A stretch of DNA of 64,000 bases from Roseobacter fucihabitans (GTDB lineage: Bacteria > Pseudomonadota > Alphaproteobacteria > Rhodobacterales > Rhodobacteraceae). The stretch covers positions 3,130,501 to 3,194,500 of the forward strand of contig NZ_CP143423.1 in NCBI RefSeq assembly GCF_014337925.2, written 5' to 3'. A program made the translations under genes and the position numbers. The notes below the pieces were generated by a model. That model worked only from the letters and a program-made list of their open reading frames with translations, ran no database searches and was not told the origin of the DNA. Below, piece after piece: positions 16,468-21,199 of the stretch; position 1 is the first letter of the stretch, and each line of letters starts with the position of its first letter.

Positions 16468-17001
16468 TCACCAATCAGTCTTCGGTGGGGGCGATAAATT
16501 GGGGAGTCTCCCGAACATACGACCAACCTTGTTTTGCCACCACCTTGGCGTGGGTTGGTTGCCCGAAACCAAACGCATTTCTTGCAAGAAGCTCCACCAT
16601 TGCGCTGGTAGCGCGACAAAGTCGCTATGAAGCAATGTTGTCTCATCGCCCTCAGACCTTACGAGCATCAATCCTGGCGGAACGTCCTCATCTCCTTCGT
16701 CCCACCTCAATTCTAGTAAACCGTCCGTCCATCGGTCTACCTTGTGCGCGCCATGTTTGGTTGTGTTTGCAACATCTACACACAGCCCATGCATCGGTAT
16801 TTTTTGCGATAACCTTTTTAAAAATTCTTTTTCATCTGACTTGCGATCTTCGGTCCGTTCATTCTTTTTCCATGCCTGCATGGCCCACTTTTCTAGCGAC
16901 CATGCGGAAATACACGCATTGAGCGCGGAATAAACCAGCGGTTGGCTTTCATCAGGATATGATCGTTGAAAATCCGAGAAAATATCAATGTCCCAATACA
17001 T
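16468..17001 (-). CDS. orphan protein of unknown function (low-GC patch)
   Basis: 177-residue acidic protein rich in Trp (WAMQAWKK, DRWTDGLLELRW, ALPAQWWSFLQ). No signal peptide, membrane segment or known motif is visible. The open frame continues upstream of ATG 17001 without a stop for some 30 codons (reading HTIQIGDVNQAWEK) but has no ATG, GTG or TTG, so the N-terminus may have been truncated by an earlier rearrangement, or an unusual start is used. GGGAG lies just before the ATG. The gene is visibly lower in GC than its neighbours and sits beside a dead IS3 element, suggesting horizontal origin. Confidence 0.6.
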   Translation of the reverse strand: MYWDIDIFSDFQRSYPDESQPLVYSALNACISAWSLEKWAMQAWKKNERTEDRKSDEKEFLKRLSQKIPMHGLCVDVANTTKHGAHKVDRWTDGLLELRWDEGDEDVPPGLMLVRSEGDETTLLHSDFVALPAQWWSFLQEMRLVSGNQPTPRWWQNKVGRMFGRLPNLSPPPKTDW

Positions 17002-17300
17002 CTTCTCCCATGCTTGATTAACGTCACCAATTTGAATCGTGTGACGGGTTGGGGGTTGCTGAGATTGCCTACGACACCCATAGCCACCTTCTTAATCTTA
17101 GACTTCACGCTATTTAGCAGATTATTAGTTACCATACAAAAACCGTCAATGAAGGTTCACAACGAACGACCTCTCACTATTGACCATCATTCACCAACTA
17201 TTAACCTCTTGCTCCCGCTCGCTCTGTTTCTGCCCTGCCCCCCCCCCAAACTTCCCTCAGTTTGATGTAGAGTTTGTTCAGCCTTTGAAGGAGCAGACAA

Positions 17301-17605
17301 ATGCGACAGAGTTGTTTTACCGAGGCCCGGATTATCGGGATGATCAAAGAACAGGAAGCTGGGATGCCGACAGCAGAGGTGTGTCGCAGACATGGTCTGA
17401 GCCCTGCGTCGTTCTGCAAATTCAAAGCAAAATACGGCGGCATGCGTTGCACGGCAGGGTATCGCGCAGCGATGTCCCGAGGGTGAACGTTTCTGACACC
17501 CACCGCCTCAAATCGCTGGAGGACAAGAGCGCCAAGCTGAAGCGTCTTCTGGCGGACACGATGCTCAACAACGTCATGTTGAAAGATTTGCTGGGAAAGA
17601 ACTGA
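17301..17605 (+). pseudogene. IS3 OrfA (interrupted by hairpin insert)
   Basis: Helix-turn-helix DNA-binding subunit of an IS3-type transposase. The first part reads RQSCFTEARIIGMIKEQEAG, VCRRHGLSPASFCKFKAKYGGM in one frame. A 41-base insert at 17445-17485 shifts the frame, after which NVSDTHRLKSLEDKSAKLKRLL and DTMLNNVMLKDLLGKN complete the leucine-rich coiled coil in another frame. Removing exactly 41 bases restores a continuous OrfA of normal length (about 87 residues). A good AAGGAGCAG site precedes the ATG. Confidence 0.85.
17445..17485 (+). repeat. palindromic insert f in orfA (41 bp)
   Basis: Inserted between the GGM and NVSD codons of orfA. The outer arms are TTGCACGGCA (left) and GAGGGTG (right), and the inner palindrome is ATCGC-GCA-GCGAT. 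The left arm differs by one base from the TTGCCCGGCA of insert c, and the GCA loop is the same as in insert d. The length is fixed by the need to rejoin the frame. Confidence 0.75.
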
Positions 17606-17725
17606 CGGTGAGCCATTGATGCGCCATTGGTTCGAGCACGATGGCGAACGCATGTGCGACGGGCTGCGGCACGCAAGGCGATGGGAGATCATGATATCTC
17701 GCAACGTCGGGCGTGCAGGCTTGTC

Positions 17726-17761
17726 CCTCTCACACATGCAAGCATGTGTTGCCCGCCAACG
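17726..17761 (-). repeat. palindromic insert a in orfB (36 bp, inverted orientation)
   Basis: Lies between the codons for RACRLV and GVGPKT. It is exactly 36 bases, so it stays in frame and adds 12 residues (PLTHASMCCPPT). Read on the minus strand it has the family structure GGGCAA, CACATGC-TT-GCATGTG, TGAGAGG. It is the only copy in the opposite orientation. Confidence 0.75.
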
Positions 17762-17800
17762 GGTGTCGGCCCCAAGACCATCCGGCGCGACAAACCGCCC

Positions 17801-17839
17801 ACTGCCCGGCAGTCGATACGCAGTATCGATGAGAGGGGC
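17801..17839 (+). repeat. palindromic insert d in orfB (about 39 bp)
   Basis: Outer arms TGCCCGGCA and GATGAGAGGGGC are nearly identical to those of insert c, but the core is a different palindrome, CGATAC-GCA-GTATCG. About 20 transposase codons are missing at this point, so the insertion was accompanied by a deletion or followed by one. The borders are less certain than for b, c and f, because the insert can be read in frame as RQSIRSIDERG. Confidence 0.65.
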
Positions 17840-17879
17840 CGGATCGGCGTGCTGTTGGAACGCAAAGGCATGATTATGA

Positions 17880-17919
17880 TACTGTCACCCGGCAGTGCAT
17901 GTTTACATGCATGAGAGGG
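17880..17919 (+). repeat. palindromic insert b in orfB (40 bp)
   Basis: Separates GMIM from HKKLYRL. Core TGCATG-TTTA-CATGCA with left arm CACCCGGCAG and right arm TGAGAGGG. It replaces two bases of the expected Asn codon, which explains the frame change and the stop codon just downstream. Confidence 0.78.
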
Positions 17920-18078
17920 CACAAGAAGCTGTATCGTCTCTACACCGAGGAAAAGCTGGGCGTCAGGCGGCGCCGAGGCCGCAAACGAGCGCGAGGATCA
18001 GGAATACCGATGCCTGTTGCGTTACGTCCTGGTGAACGCTGATCGCTGGACTTTGTGTCTGACACGTTTGGTGCGTCC

Positions 18079-18115
18079 ATTGCCCGGCAATGCATGTTTA
18101 CATGCATGAGAGGGG
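18079..18115 (+). repeat. palindromic insert c in orfB (37 bp)
   Basis: Sits between the codons for FGAS and RKFRML; removing exactly 37 bases restores the frame. Structure: TTGCCCGGCA, ATGCATG-TTTA-CATGCAT, GAGAGGGG. It shares core and arms with insert b and arms with insert d. Confidence 0.8.
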
Positions 18116-18172
18116 CGCAAGTTCCGTATGTTAGCCATGAACAACGACTGCTGCCGCGAGAACCTGTGCCTC

Positions 18173-18219
18173 CTCCCGGCAGGTTTGGCTTTGCCAAATC
18201 GCCTGCCGGGCAACGGATG
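18173..18219 (+). repeat. palindromic insert e in orfB (47 bp, related or distinct type)
   Basis: Lies between ENLCL and ADTSITG. It is a long hairpin with a 9-bp outer stem CCCGGCAGG / CCTGCCGGG and an inner stem TTTGGC-TTT-GCCAAA. It shares the CCCGGCAG word with inserts b-d but has a different right half. It may be a longer variant of the same family or an independent element. Confidence 0.65.
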
Positions 18220-18847
18220 GCTGATACCAGTATCACTGGTGCGAGGGTGGCACGCGAGCTTGATGCGCTTGTGCGCGTCTATGGAAAGCCCGCCTGTATC
18301 GTCAGTGATAACGGCACGGAATTTACCAGTCGTGCGATCCTGAAACGGGCCGGTGATAACGACGTGGATTGGCATTACATCGACCCGGGCAAGCCGACGC
18401 AGAATGCCTTCATCGAAAGCTTCAATGGGAGCCTGCGAGACGAACTGCTGAATGAGGAGATCTTCGACACCTTGGATGATGCCCGTCGAAAGCTGGCCCT
18501 CTGGCGATACGATTATAATAACGTCAGACCGCATTCATCGCTGGAGAACCAAACGCCGGCAGAAGCGCGCCGGGCGCTTGAGCAATTTGAGGGCTCCGCG
18601 CACGACGCGCTTGCCCAAACCGACGACGACGAGTACGACCGCAAACTCTCGTTATGAATGAGGGAGCCTCGGGGGAAAGGTCATTAACCCCGCCAGGGAC
18701 CCGCATTTACACACCGCGCGTGGTACAGCTTTTGTACGGGGGTCACAGCACGGTCTGGCCTTATGACACAGGAGTTAAAGGCGCTGTTCTACCAAAGGGC
18801 GGATCACAGCGCTCGACACCTGCACCTGGTATTGCGGCCACGTCTCA

Positions 18848-21199
18848 CTAACGGTCGTCCCCACCCGCCGCTTCGCCATCCGGCAGATCGTCCTCGATGG
18901 AGGCCTGCGCCGCCGCCGTGACCGCCTTCTTGTCGTCCTCAGACAGATCGTCGACCTTGCCGTCCTTCAATCGCACCGTGACCTCCTTATGCGCAAAATG
19001 GATGCCTTCACGCTCGAAAAGGATGCGTATTTCCTCATAGACGCGCTTGCGCACGAGCCATTGATCGCCCGGTTTGGTCATGAACTTCACCCGGATGATC
19101 ATCGCCGAATCCTGCATCTCGATCACGCCCTGCGACTTCAGCGGCTGAATGAAGTTCTCCCCGATCACCGGATCATCCAGCAGCGCCACGCCGAGGTTCT
19201 TGATCAGCTTGCGCACCTTTTCCACATCGGTGTCATAGGTCACCCGGAGGGGCAGTTTCATGATCACCCAGTCGCGCGAATAATTGGTCATGACCTGTAT
19301 TTCACCAAACGGAATAGTGTGCAGCGCGCCCAGGTGGTGGCGCAGCTGAAAGGAGCGCACGGAGATTTTCTCCACGGTGCCCTTTACCCCGCCGATGTCG
19401 AGGTATTCGCCCTTGCGAAACGCATCATCAAAGAGGAAGAACCCGCCTGAAAATATGTCCCGCACCAGCGCCTGAGAGCCAAACCCCACGGCCACACCCA
19501 CCACACCTGCACCGGCAAAAAGAGGGCCGACATTAACCCCGATTTCCAGCAGCACAATCAGCGTGATCGTGACCAAAACCACAATCAGGATGAAGTTGCG
19601 AAACAGCGGCAGAAGGGTCGCCAGACGGCTCGCACCCGTTCCACCGCCGTCGCCACCCACGTCCTCTTCGATCATGTCGCCCTGTTCTTCAGCGATCTTG
19701 TTATCAATCCAGATCCGGAACGTGTGATAGACGATATAGCCAAGGAAACAGATCACCATGATGTCGAGAAGTTGGGTCGTCACGCCCTCGACCATCTGCG
19801 TCGAATTTTCATCCCAAATGTAGAAAAACGCATATGTCCCCGCCACAAAGGCAAGGATCGCAGCCACCCGACGCGCCAGCGCCTCGAAGGTATTGAGCGC
19901 ATGACGCGGGCGCAGGGCCGCTATTTCCTGCGGCGTGATCTCCTCCTGTGTCATCGCCTCATCCGGGACCTGTCCCAGGTTCAGATCACGCAGGGCGCGG
20001 GCGCGCTGAAAGCTGCGTTCAATGGTGAAATTGATGACGCCATAAACCACGATGATCGACATCACGATGCTATAGGCGCCGGCGATGAGCGGGATCGAGG
20101 AAGGGTGCCCCAACACCAAATCATAGGTCAATTCCATCCAGGCAAAGATCACATAACCAATCACCAGAGGGGCCCAGATCATGGTCACAAACTTCAATGC
20201 CCAACTGACCTCGCCCGCTGGCTTTCCATTGCGCATCGCACTGGAAATCGCGGCTCGGTTCACCAGCACCATGACGATATTGAGCAGCACAACGATCGCG
20301 GACATCAGCGAATAAAGAAAAGCATACACATCGTAGTTCAACCCTAATTCGCCGATCCAGACACCAAACAGAATGGCGCAGATATCGACCGTCCCGAGGG
20401 TCCAGAGCCATGTGTGCAACCGCGTGGCGTCGCGCGTGGACATCACCGGAATGCGGTATTGTTCAAGGTAGGGTGAGAGCACCATGCGCCACAGGTTCGC
20501 CACCAATCGACACGCGAAATAGGCGGTATTGATGACGCTGACCGTGAATTGCATGCCCTTGTCTTCCAAGGGACCGAAGATCAGCGCGCCCAGGATGTAA
20601 GCGACGAGCATGGATATGAGAATCCCGATCAGCCCCATAAAGAAGCGGAGCACCAGAAAGGGCATCTTTTCGCCGTATCCCACCGGGTTTTGCCGGATCC
20701 GGGAGACGACGAAATTCTTCGCGATGCGTTTGCCATAGATCTGCGTTTCAAACACCATGCCAACGGCGAAAAGCAAAAGCGATATGATCAGGGCATAGGC
20801 GAAGGCCCAGATCGTGCCATCCGGGCTTGTGGCGCGCAGGATATAGATCACTTCGTTGAAAGCATTGGGTAAATCTAGCATCCTTTCGATCAGGACCGTC
20901 CGAAAGCGCACCACCGAATCCTGCGCCTTCATCAGGCTGGAGCCTTCCATGCTTTCAGCGGGGGGTTGCGGCGGGGCAGGCTCGCTCAGCACCGTCCCCT
21001 GGCTGTCGATGACGATCACCCCGACACCGTTTTCGGCAGCCTGCTGCATGATTTCGGGGATCCGGTCGGTCTCCTGCGCACTCTCGGGCGCGGCGGGTGC
21101 AAAAAGCGACCCAATCGATTGCGCGCCCGCAGGGGATTGAAATCCCATGTAAAACAGCGTCGAAAAGCAGATGATAAAAACTGATAAAAAGGCGCGCAT
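18848..21199 (-). CDS. large MscS-family mechanosensitive channel
   Basis: 783-residue inner-membrane channel that would release solutes under hypo-osmotic stress. The start at 21199 was chosen because it yields a signal peptide (MRAFLSVFIICFSTLFYMGF ... AGAQS). A periplasmic stretch of about 100 residues follows, then many transmembrane helices between about 130 and 520, well above the three of short MscS. The MscS pore helix and beta domain lie near 590-700, with VGVAVGFGSQALVRDIFSGGFF, FRKGEYLDIGG and RSFQLRHHLGALHTIPFGEI. The acidic C-terminal tail (DDLSEDDKKA ... EDDLPDGEA) is typical of cytoplasmic MscS ends. The gene is monocistronic and divergent from the glycan operon. Confidence 0.93.
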   Translation of the reverse strand: MRAFLSVFIICFSTLFYMGFQSPAGAQSIGSLFAPAAPESAQETDRIPEIMQQAAENGVGVIVIDSQGTVLSEPAPPQPPAESMEGSSLMKAQDSVVRFRTVLIERMLDLPNAFNEVIYILRATSPDGTIWAFAYALIISLLLFAVGMVFETQIYGKRIAKNFVVSRIRQNPVGYGEKMPFLVLRFFMGLIGILISMLVAYILGALIFGPLEDKGMQFTVSVINTAYFACRLVANLWRMVLSPYLEQYRIPVMSTRDATRLHTWLWTLGTVDICAILFGVWIGELGLNYDVYAFLYSLMSAIVVLLNIVMVLVNRAAISSAMRNGKPAGEVSWALKFVTMIWAPLVIGYVIFAWMELTYDLVLGHPSSIPLIAGAYSIVMSIIVVYGVINFTIERSFQRARALRDLNLGQVPDEAMTQEEITPQEIAALRPRHALNTFEALARRVAAILAFVAGTYAFFYIWDENSTQMVEGVTTQLLDIMVICFLGYIVYHTFRIWIDNKIAEEQGDMIEEDVGGDGGGTGASRLATLLPLFRNFILIVVLVTITLIVLLEIGVNVGPLFAGAGVVGVAVGFGSQALVRDIFSGGFFLFDDAFRKGEYLDIGGVKGTVEKISVRSFQLRHHLGALHTIPFGEIQVMTNYSRDWVIMKLPLRVTYDTDVEKVRKLIKNLGVALLDDPVIGENFIQPLKSQGVIEMQDSAMIIRVKFMTKPGDQWLVRKRVYEEIRILFEREGIHFAHKEVTVRLKDGKVDDLSEDDKKAVTAAAQASIEDDLPDGEAAGGDDR

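Follow-up and report, generated by a model that had tools for sequence, protein, structure and literature searches.

Short palindromic elements in Roseobacter fucihabitans and its relatives have moved recently and precisely, without target duplication, with a preference for a particular target and with their structure kept. The best explanation, and one that we hold with reasonable though far from full confidence, is that they are non-autonomous mobile hairpins moved by an enzyme acting in trans that recognizes a folded foot and an internal loop. The elements are found largely in transposase genes, which they usually break.

Six elements in an IS3-family insertion sequence

We analyzed a window of 64,000 nucleotides (G000:C1:3130501-3194500) from the R. 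fucihabitans genome, which comprises 6 contigs and has a completeness of 100. At ~17238..18675 on the + strand, the window holds an IS3-family insertion sequence, delimited by the shared extents of its copies and assigned through relatives annotated as IS3 family transposase. A first-pass annotation had described this sequence as peppered with five short inserts and possibly a sixth, and all six were found in the window sequence. Borders were read partly by eye from alignments to related loci, two of them insert-free at these places (L063 and L145) and one with a single insert, at the position of element f (L065); those of elements a, e, and f are uncertain by 1–2 nt. In keeping with the claim that these segments are insertions, they are missing from the IS relatives, with one exception, a relative whose f site holds an element with a different core.

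Element f (17445..17485, + strand; CGTTG CACGGCA, core GGGTATCGCGCAGCGATGTCCC, GAGGGTG) has degenerate arms and was delimited by eye on the alignment; its site is empty in L063 and filled in L065, which comes from the same genus (G010). Element a (17726..17761, − strand) is 36 nt long, has the core ACACATGCTTGCATGTGT and a degenerate left arm, GCGGGCA, and corresponds to a gap in both L063 and L065, again with borders set by eye. Element b (17883..17919, + strand; TGTCA CCCGGCA, core GTGCATGTTTACATGCAT, GAGAGGG) was located by pattern search and alignment to the empty site, and element c (18078..18114, + strand; CATTG CCCGGCA, core ATGCATGTTTACATGCAT, GAGAGGG) is a 37-nt unit that matches a 37-nt gap in L063, L065, and L145. 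The same three loci have a 44-nt gap at element e (18172..18215, − strand; CGTTG CCCGGCA, core GGCGATTTGGCAAAGCCAAACCTGCC, GGGAGG). Whether this larger hairpin was related to the others had been left open by the first-pass annotation; in other genomes, cores of its type (GGCGATTTGGC..GCCAAA.CTGCC) are flanked by regular arms, which places it in the family.

Element d (17800..17837, + strand; core GTCGATACGCAGTATCGAT), identified by pattern search and alignments, proved not to be a clean insertion. It sits at a deletion junction where, by alignment with relatives, ~65 nt of OrfB are missing, and the IS3 element is therefore truly dead. A truncated copy (L005) diverges at the position of element d and has another core there. 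The local pattern search recovered three of the six, namely b, c, and d, against 0 expected from shuffled sequences; the arms of a, e, and f are degenerate. An Rfam search of 17000-19000 returned no family at threshold, so no known RNA family was found there.

The genome has the insert-bearing IS3 in four full copies with common ends; the three besides the one analyzed here are 99.4–99.7% identical, and no insert-free copy of it was reported in that genome. Judging from these sequences, it apparently multiplied after gaining its inserts. Matches to this IS3 also occur on plasmids of Roseobacteraceae and Rhodobacteraceae genera, for example in Octadecabacter sp. SW4.

Constant arms and variable, paired cores

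The unit, ~36–45 nt long, opens with five nucleotides, CAYTG for the most part, followed by CCCGGCA, a palindromic core differing from copy to copy, and YGAGAGGG. The first-pass annotation was right that the arms are shared, but its left arm, TGCMCGGCA, is better written CAYTG-CCCGGCA, and the right arm is YGAGAGGG. Inserts measure 36, 37, 40, 41, 42, and other numbers of nucleotides, and some cores contain stop codons. Bases 1 and 5 of the element are C and G, respectively, in 57 of 66 own-genome sites and T and A in the other 9.

Pairing within the core was assessed on cores that had not been preselected for it. A contiguous stem of at least five pairs is present in 27 of 35 distinct own-genome cores, compared to 2.0 in shuffles, and in 115 of 150 cores of relatives, compared to 8.4. 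With pair columns chosen from the data, 394 of 448 cells pair in 22-nt cores (shuffle maximum 318) and 217 of 248 in 18-nt cores (shuffle maximum 167). Changes on both sides of a pair account for 83 cells in 18-nt cores and 74 cells in 22-nt cores, in a set of 204 cores that was partly preselected for pairing and for which the columns were again chosen from the data. Purine-N-A triloops close 67 of the 136 cores that have such a stem, and two-base TT loops are next commonest. In single-stranded DNA, loops of the form GNA have unusually high stability.

When folded as RNA, each of four members has a CCC/GGG foot of 3–4 pairs with a largely open GGCA/GAGA above it, topped by a variable stem closed by a small loop (z −1.3 to −1.9 relative to shuffles). 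DNA folds of the six members differ among themselves and are only modestly more stable than shuffles (z −1.1 to −1.9).

Base 5 and the first base after the element tend to be non-complementary, as if the foot must end there, although this is not absolute. In the own genome, G at base 5 precedes C in 0 of 57 sites, and A at base 5 precedes C in 7 of 9 (Fisher p 4.6e-8). The trend is weaker in 197 other genomes of the family (A5 before C, 3; A5 before A, G, or T, 2; G5 before C, 5), where the large G5-before-G group comes from a partly different genome set; in another site set, G5 and a G at +1 were mostly fixed by the search pattern.

Distribution of the elements

A search of the own genome with the arms and any core gave 57 matches, compared to 0 for the reversed pattern, and shorter arms with any core gave 113 compared to 1. 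Many copies with varied cores were thus recovered, as the first-pass reading of a hairpin family with shared arms had predicted. Across 291 genomes, 62 contained matches (the own genome included, with 84), and the reversed pattern matched 4 times overall; a few of these matches, with unpaired cores, are probably due to chance. No match to the pattern was found in 114 genomes of other families in the class. A chance origin of the pattern as such was ruled out by the reversed-pattern and shuffle controls.

Among named genomes, at least 120 stretches match. Of the 80 listed, most bear Rhodobacteraceae, Roseobacteraceae, or Paracoccaceae names, and ~9 are less obvious, namely two Cohaesibacter, Labrenzia, one Sphingomonas, and metagenome bins labeled Rhodospirillales, Planctomycetota, Verrucomicrobiota, or unplaced. 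Close elements occur in 90, 108, and 12 plasmid records for three core types, in sets that overlap; the organisms include Dinoroseobacter shibae (pDSHI04), Ruegeria pomeroyi (megaplasmid), Roseobacter litoralis, Octadecabacter arcticus, and Phaeobacter gallaeciensis. Nineteen stretches of viral contigs also match.

A relaxed search of the examined own-genome stretches yielded 158 elements, at least one of them false, at 66 distinct sites (67 minus one false positive, C2 86385); it misses diverged copies, such as a and f in the window and one in IS family E, and these counts are incomplete. The sites in other genomes number 138, after removal of 42 with a stem below five pairs and 11 duplicates from 191 pattern matches.

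Precise insertion at a preferred target

For six own-genome IS families, alignment against relatives free of inserts showed 20 of 23 elements to be clean insertions with no target duplication, a count that takes in b despite the extra base in its flank. Of the remaining three, two (A-d and B-684135) coincide with a deletion or truncation and one could not be judged; an additional diverged element in family E is likewise a clean insertion. The tetranucleotide CRTC precedes the insertion in 20 of 66 own-genome sites, compared to 1.0 expected from neighboring positions. In other genomes the count is 43 of 128 sites, compared to 1.2 expected (viral loci having been removed from the 138 for this count). 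The first base after the insertion is G in 49 of 66 own-genome sites. As the full CRTC is present at just 20 of these 66 sites, the target is a preference.

Two pairs of sequences document younger insertions. An IS shared by Sulfitobacter sp. D7 and strain DSM 110093 is 99.2% identical in the two pieces that flank the insert, and the two copies differ by 42 nt, which we read from the alignment as a 41-nt element plus one extra base at its left; a longer alignment gives only 85.7%, since it extends into flanks that are unrelated. In Marinibacterium anthonyi La 6, an exact 41-nt element and a second one distinguish two plasmids whose matched pieces share 93.9% identity. The notion of a mobile hairpin family that inserts repeatedly is thus supported both by copies with the same arms and other cores and by precise empty sites in relatives.

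At two insertions, L326/L328 and element b (window position 17883), the target has one extra base immediately at the element's left edge, which the joining reaction may have left behind.

At the position of element f in orfA, elements with different cores are present in different IS and genomes. Either this is a preferred spot or cores have been exchanged, and the data are compatible with both. More generally, evolution by core replacement, suggested in the first-pass annotation, is possible, and independent insertions at a preferred target together with compensatory stem change fit the same observations.

Candidate routes of mobilization

The enzyme that we favor would be supplied in trans and would recognize the folded hairpin by its foot and internal loop, not by the sequence of its core. 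It would cut the hairpin at its foot and join the element 3′ of CRTC; its substrate would most likely be single-stranded DNA, as it is for HUH transposases. The core sequence would then be free to drift while its pairing is kept. Weighing against this model, a gene for a mobilizing enzyme was not found, with PF01797 as the domain looked for, and single members fold as DNA only modestly better than shuffles.

We consider it unlikely that the elements are REPs mobilized by a resident Y1 tyrosine transposase of the RAYT or IS200 type. IS200/IS605 elements do insert without duplication after a short 5′ motif, and PF01797, the Y1 transposase domain, has 10 matches in the own genome and occurs in 10 other genomes of the family, 7 of them with pattern matches. 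However, of 13 genomes that bear elements, several of them drafts, 12 are without PF01797, three genomes of the family that have it show no pattern match, and exact arm motifs on both sides of the gene were not found at any of the ten own-genome Y1 places. In three IS200-type tnpA loci (L153, L154, and L155), moreover, the same element lies at the end of the matched Y1 domain, indicating that these transposases are victims. On genome absence and the arm scan, we mostly rejected a Y1 transposase as the standing mobilizer.

Insertion via RNA, by a route resembling intron homing in which a structured transcript would be integrated into DNA or RNA and copied by reverse transcription, strikes us as rather improbable. 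RNA folds, with their internal loop, vary less between members than DNA folds do, in a comparison of four with six inputs, some with composite flanks, and the lack of target duplication would suit this route. Against it, known self-splicing introns are far longer than the element, the Rfam search around the IS3 found no family at threshold, and elements on both strands are found within one IS.

Host insertion sequences and their multiplication

We searched the flanks of the elements for Pfam domains. In 134 flank pieces from 67 own-genome sites, the top families were transposase domains, namely rve (14), HTH_21 (9), IstB (7), and DDE_Tnp_1 (4), and in 143 pieces from 75 of the 138 other-genome sites they were rve (12), HTH_21 (8), rve_3 (7), DDE_Tnp_1 (7), and Transposase_mut (6). 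The control of random window positions (81 of 134 prepared pieces) contained no transposase domain among the 25 listed of 52 Pfam families. A minority of the flank matches are to ordinary genes, such as NTP_transferase and OCD_Mu_crystall, and many flank pieces have no Pfam match; these results are aggregate rather than per site.

Several of the host families have multiplied in the genome with their elements. Family C (IS1182) has five full or nearly full and two partial copies that are 99.8–100% identical, and the sole breaks in its transposase, over aligned residues 4–472, are two frame-shifting inserts. Families A and B carry a deletion or truncation at an element and have both multiplied, as has family E, which has a stop codon outside its elements, also found in two further copies that were checked. 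Because A, B, and E have further lesions and have nonetheless multiplied, dead copies do multiply, and transposase supplied in trans is the simplest reading.

These observations also bear on whether the inserts might be tolerated, through removal from RNA or ribosome bypass, such that the insert-bearing IS copies remain functional. Family C, with near-identical copies broken by its two inserts only, would suit such tolerance, and no insert-free own-genome copy of at least 90% identity was found for it (across the insert sites) or for families A and D. Tolerance is nevertheless highly improbable: the lesions of A, B, and E, beside the inserts or at the elements, did not stop their multiplication; diverged relatives that seem to lack inserts are present in the genome for C (fragments of 71% and 81% identity) and D (68–80%) and could have supplied the transposase; and the phase-0 sites of family B do not have matching take-off and landing codons (ATC or ATT before, GGG at the end).

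It is scarcely credible that the hairpins have no mobility of their own, having arisen once and spread solely through amplification of the IS, gene conversion, and recombination among elements. In favor of this view, 122 of the 158 elements lie inside repeats of at least 300 bp and at least 90% identity, and several junctions pair the left flank of one site with the right flank of another. Against it, distinct flanks number 66 in one genome and 138 in other loci, IS families unrelated to each other have precise empty sites, and one IS is both filled and empty at 99.2% identity; the filled and empty pairs already contradict it in large part. If the elements are mobile hairpins moved in trans, as we favor, IS DNA would collect them because it is dispensable, and IS multiplication would carry element copies along.

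Chimeric junctions, at which one sequence runs into another at an element, were seen at 902251/3841261, 15406/2104114, 2224316/16283/3777931, and 1073230/1643922. As a general rule, a role of elements as recombination hot spots was not supported: 6 of 25 internal breakpoints in seven IS families fall at an element, compared to 3.6 expected (p 0.14). A small palindrome, GTCGCACCAAAGGTGCGCA, at L045:3896-3916 in family D (IS21) is absent from two aligned relatives and does not have the family arms; it is possibly a second kind of insert.

Comparison with known palindromic repeats

We found no description of such elements for this bacterial group in the open-access literature, in agreement with the first-pass annotation, which had, however, not mentioned the near kin discussed below, the CGTC-tagged REPs. 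Its comparison with Rickettsia palindromic elements holds loosely. Those elements are palindromic and insert in frame into coding sequence, keeping the host protein. The elements described here are also palindromic inserts inside coding sequence, and element a and one in family D are among the few copies that keep the frame, but many lengths are not divisible by three and in-frame stops occur, such that most examined copies break the gene.

The Byp elements of Magnusiomyces mitochondria are likewise short mobile hairpins inside genes and have matching take-off and landing codons. Such triplets were not found here, as judged at the phase-0 sites of family B, and most hosts are transposase genes, of which several are dead. 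MITEs resemble our elements in being small, non-autonomous, and present in many copies, but they create target duplications, whereas 20 of 23 aligned elements here are clean insertions, and no terminal inverted repeats of an autonomous element were identified.

GTAG REPs, which are mobilized by RAYTs, are, like the present elements, hairpin repeats thought to be non-autonomous, according to a published survey (PMC3733652). The consensus here does not have the GTAG tag, and neither the distribution of PF01797 (missing in 12 of 13 genomes) nor the sequences around the own-genome Y1 genes, none of which has exact arm motifs on both sides, suggests the same arrangement.

The nearest published kind, going by the same survey, is the CGTC-tagged REPs, short palindromic repeats mainly of alpha-Proteobacteria with variable stems and loops (Di Nocera 2013, PMC3733652). 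There they are described as having a terminal unpaired CGTC (or TGTC or CCTC), a stem of 8–9 bp that begins with AT, and a CCA tail, as including RPE-4 and RPE-6 of Rickettsia conorii and dRS3 of Neisseria, and as having no dedicated transposase that the authors could find (PMC3733652). A CGTC-like tetranucleotide also precedes many copies here. In contrast to the published repeats, as far as these can be compared by description, CATC or CGTC is present in our empty sites and is therefore target rather than part of the element. Judging from these alignments, the key difference is that the CGTC-like tetranucleotide belongs to the target. The present elements also differ in having neither the AT-starting stem of 8–9 bp nor the CCA tail, in having a constant GGCA/GAGA that separates foot and core, and in lying mostly in transposase genes. 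A CGTC-REP-like pattern had no match in 332 loci.

More tentatively, hairpin transposition of a new class might be at work, with an enzyme of its own that would read the foot and internal loop rather than the core and would use CRTC|G as its target. By extension, and as speculatively, the CGTC 'tag' of alpha-Proteobacteria REPs might be the footprint of an insertion target.

Significance

Small palindromic repeats are common in bacteria, and those of the CGTC type are without a known mobilizer in the published account drawn on above (PMC3733652). The present analysis contributes ~20 exact comparisons of filled and empty sites in one genome, a target and a structural consensus, and a strain pair with a recent insertion. 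With these, the old question of how CGTC-type repeats are mobilized comes within reach of ordinary experiments on marine bacteria that can be cultured, Sulfitobacter among them. If the CGTC tag is indeed a target footprint, then the REP superfamily would consist of transposons of the same type and its mobilizer could be hunted. Within their hosts, the elements break the transposases of several IS families and may in this way shape the ageing of IS populations.
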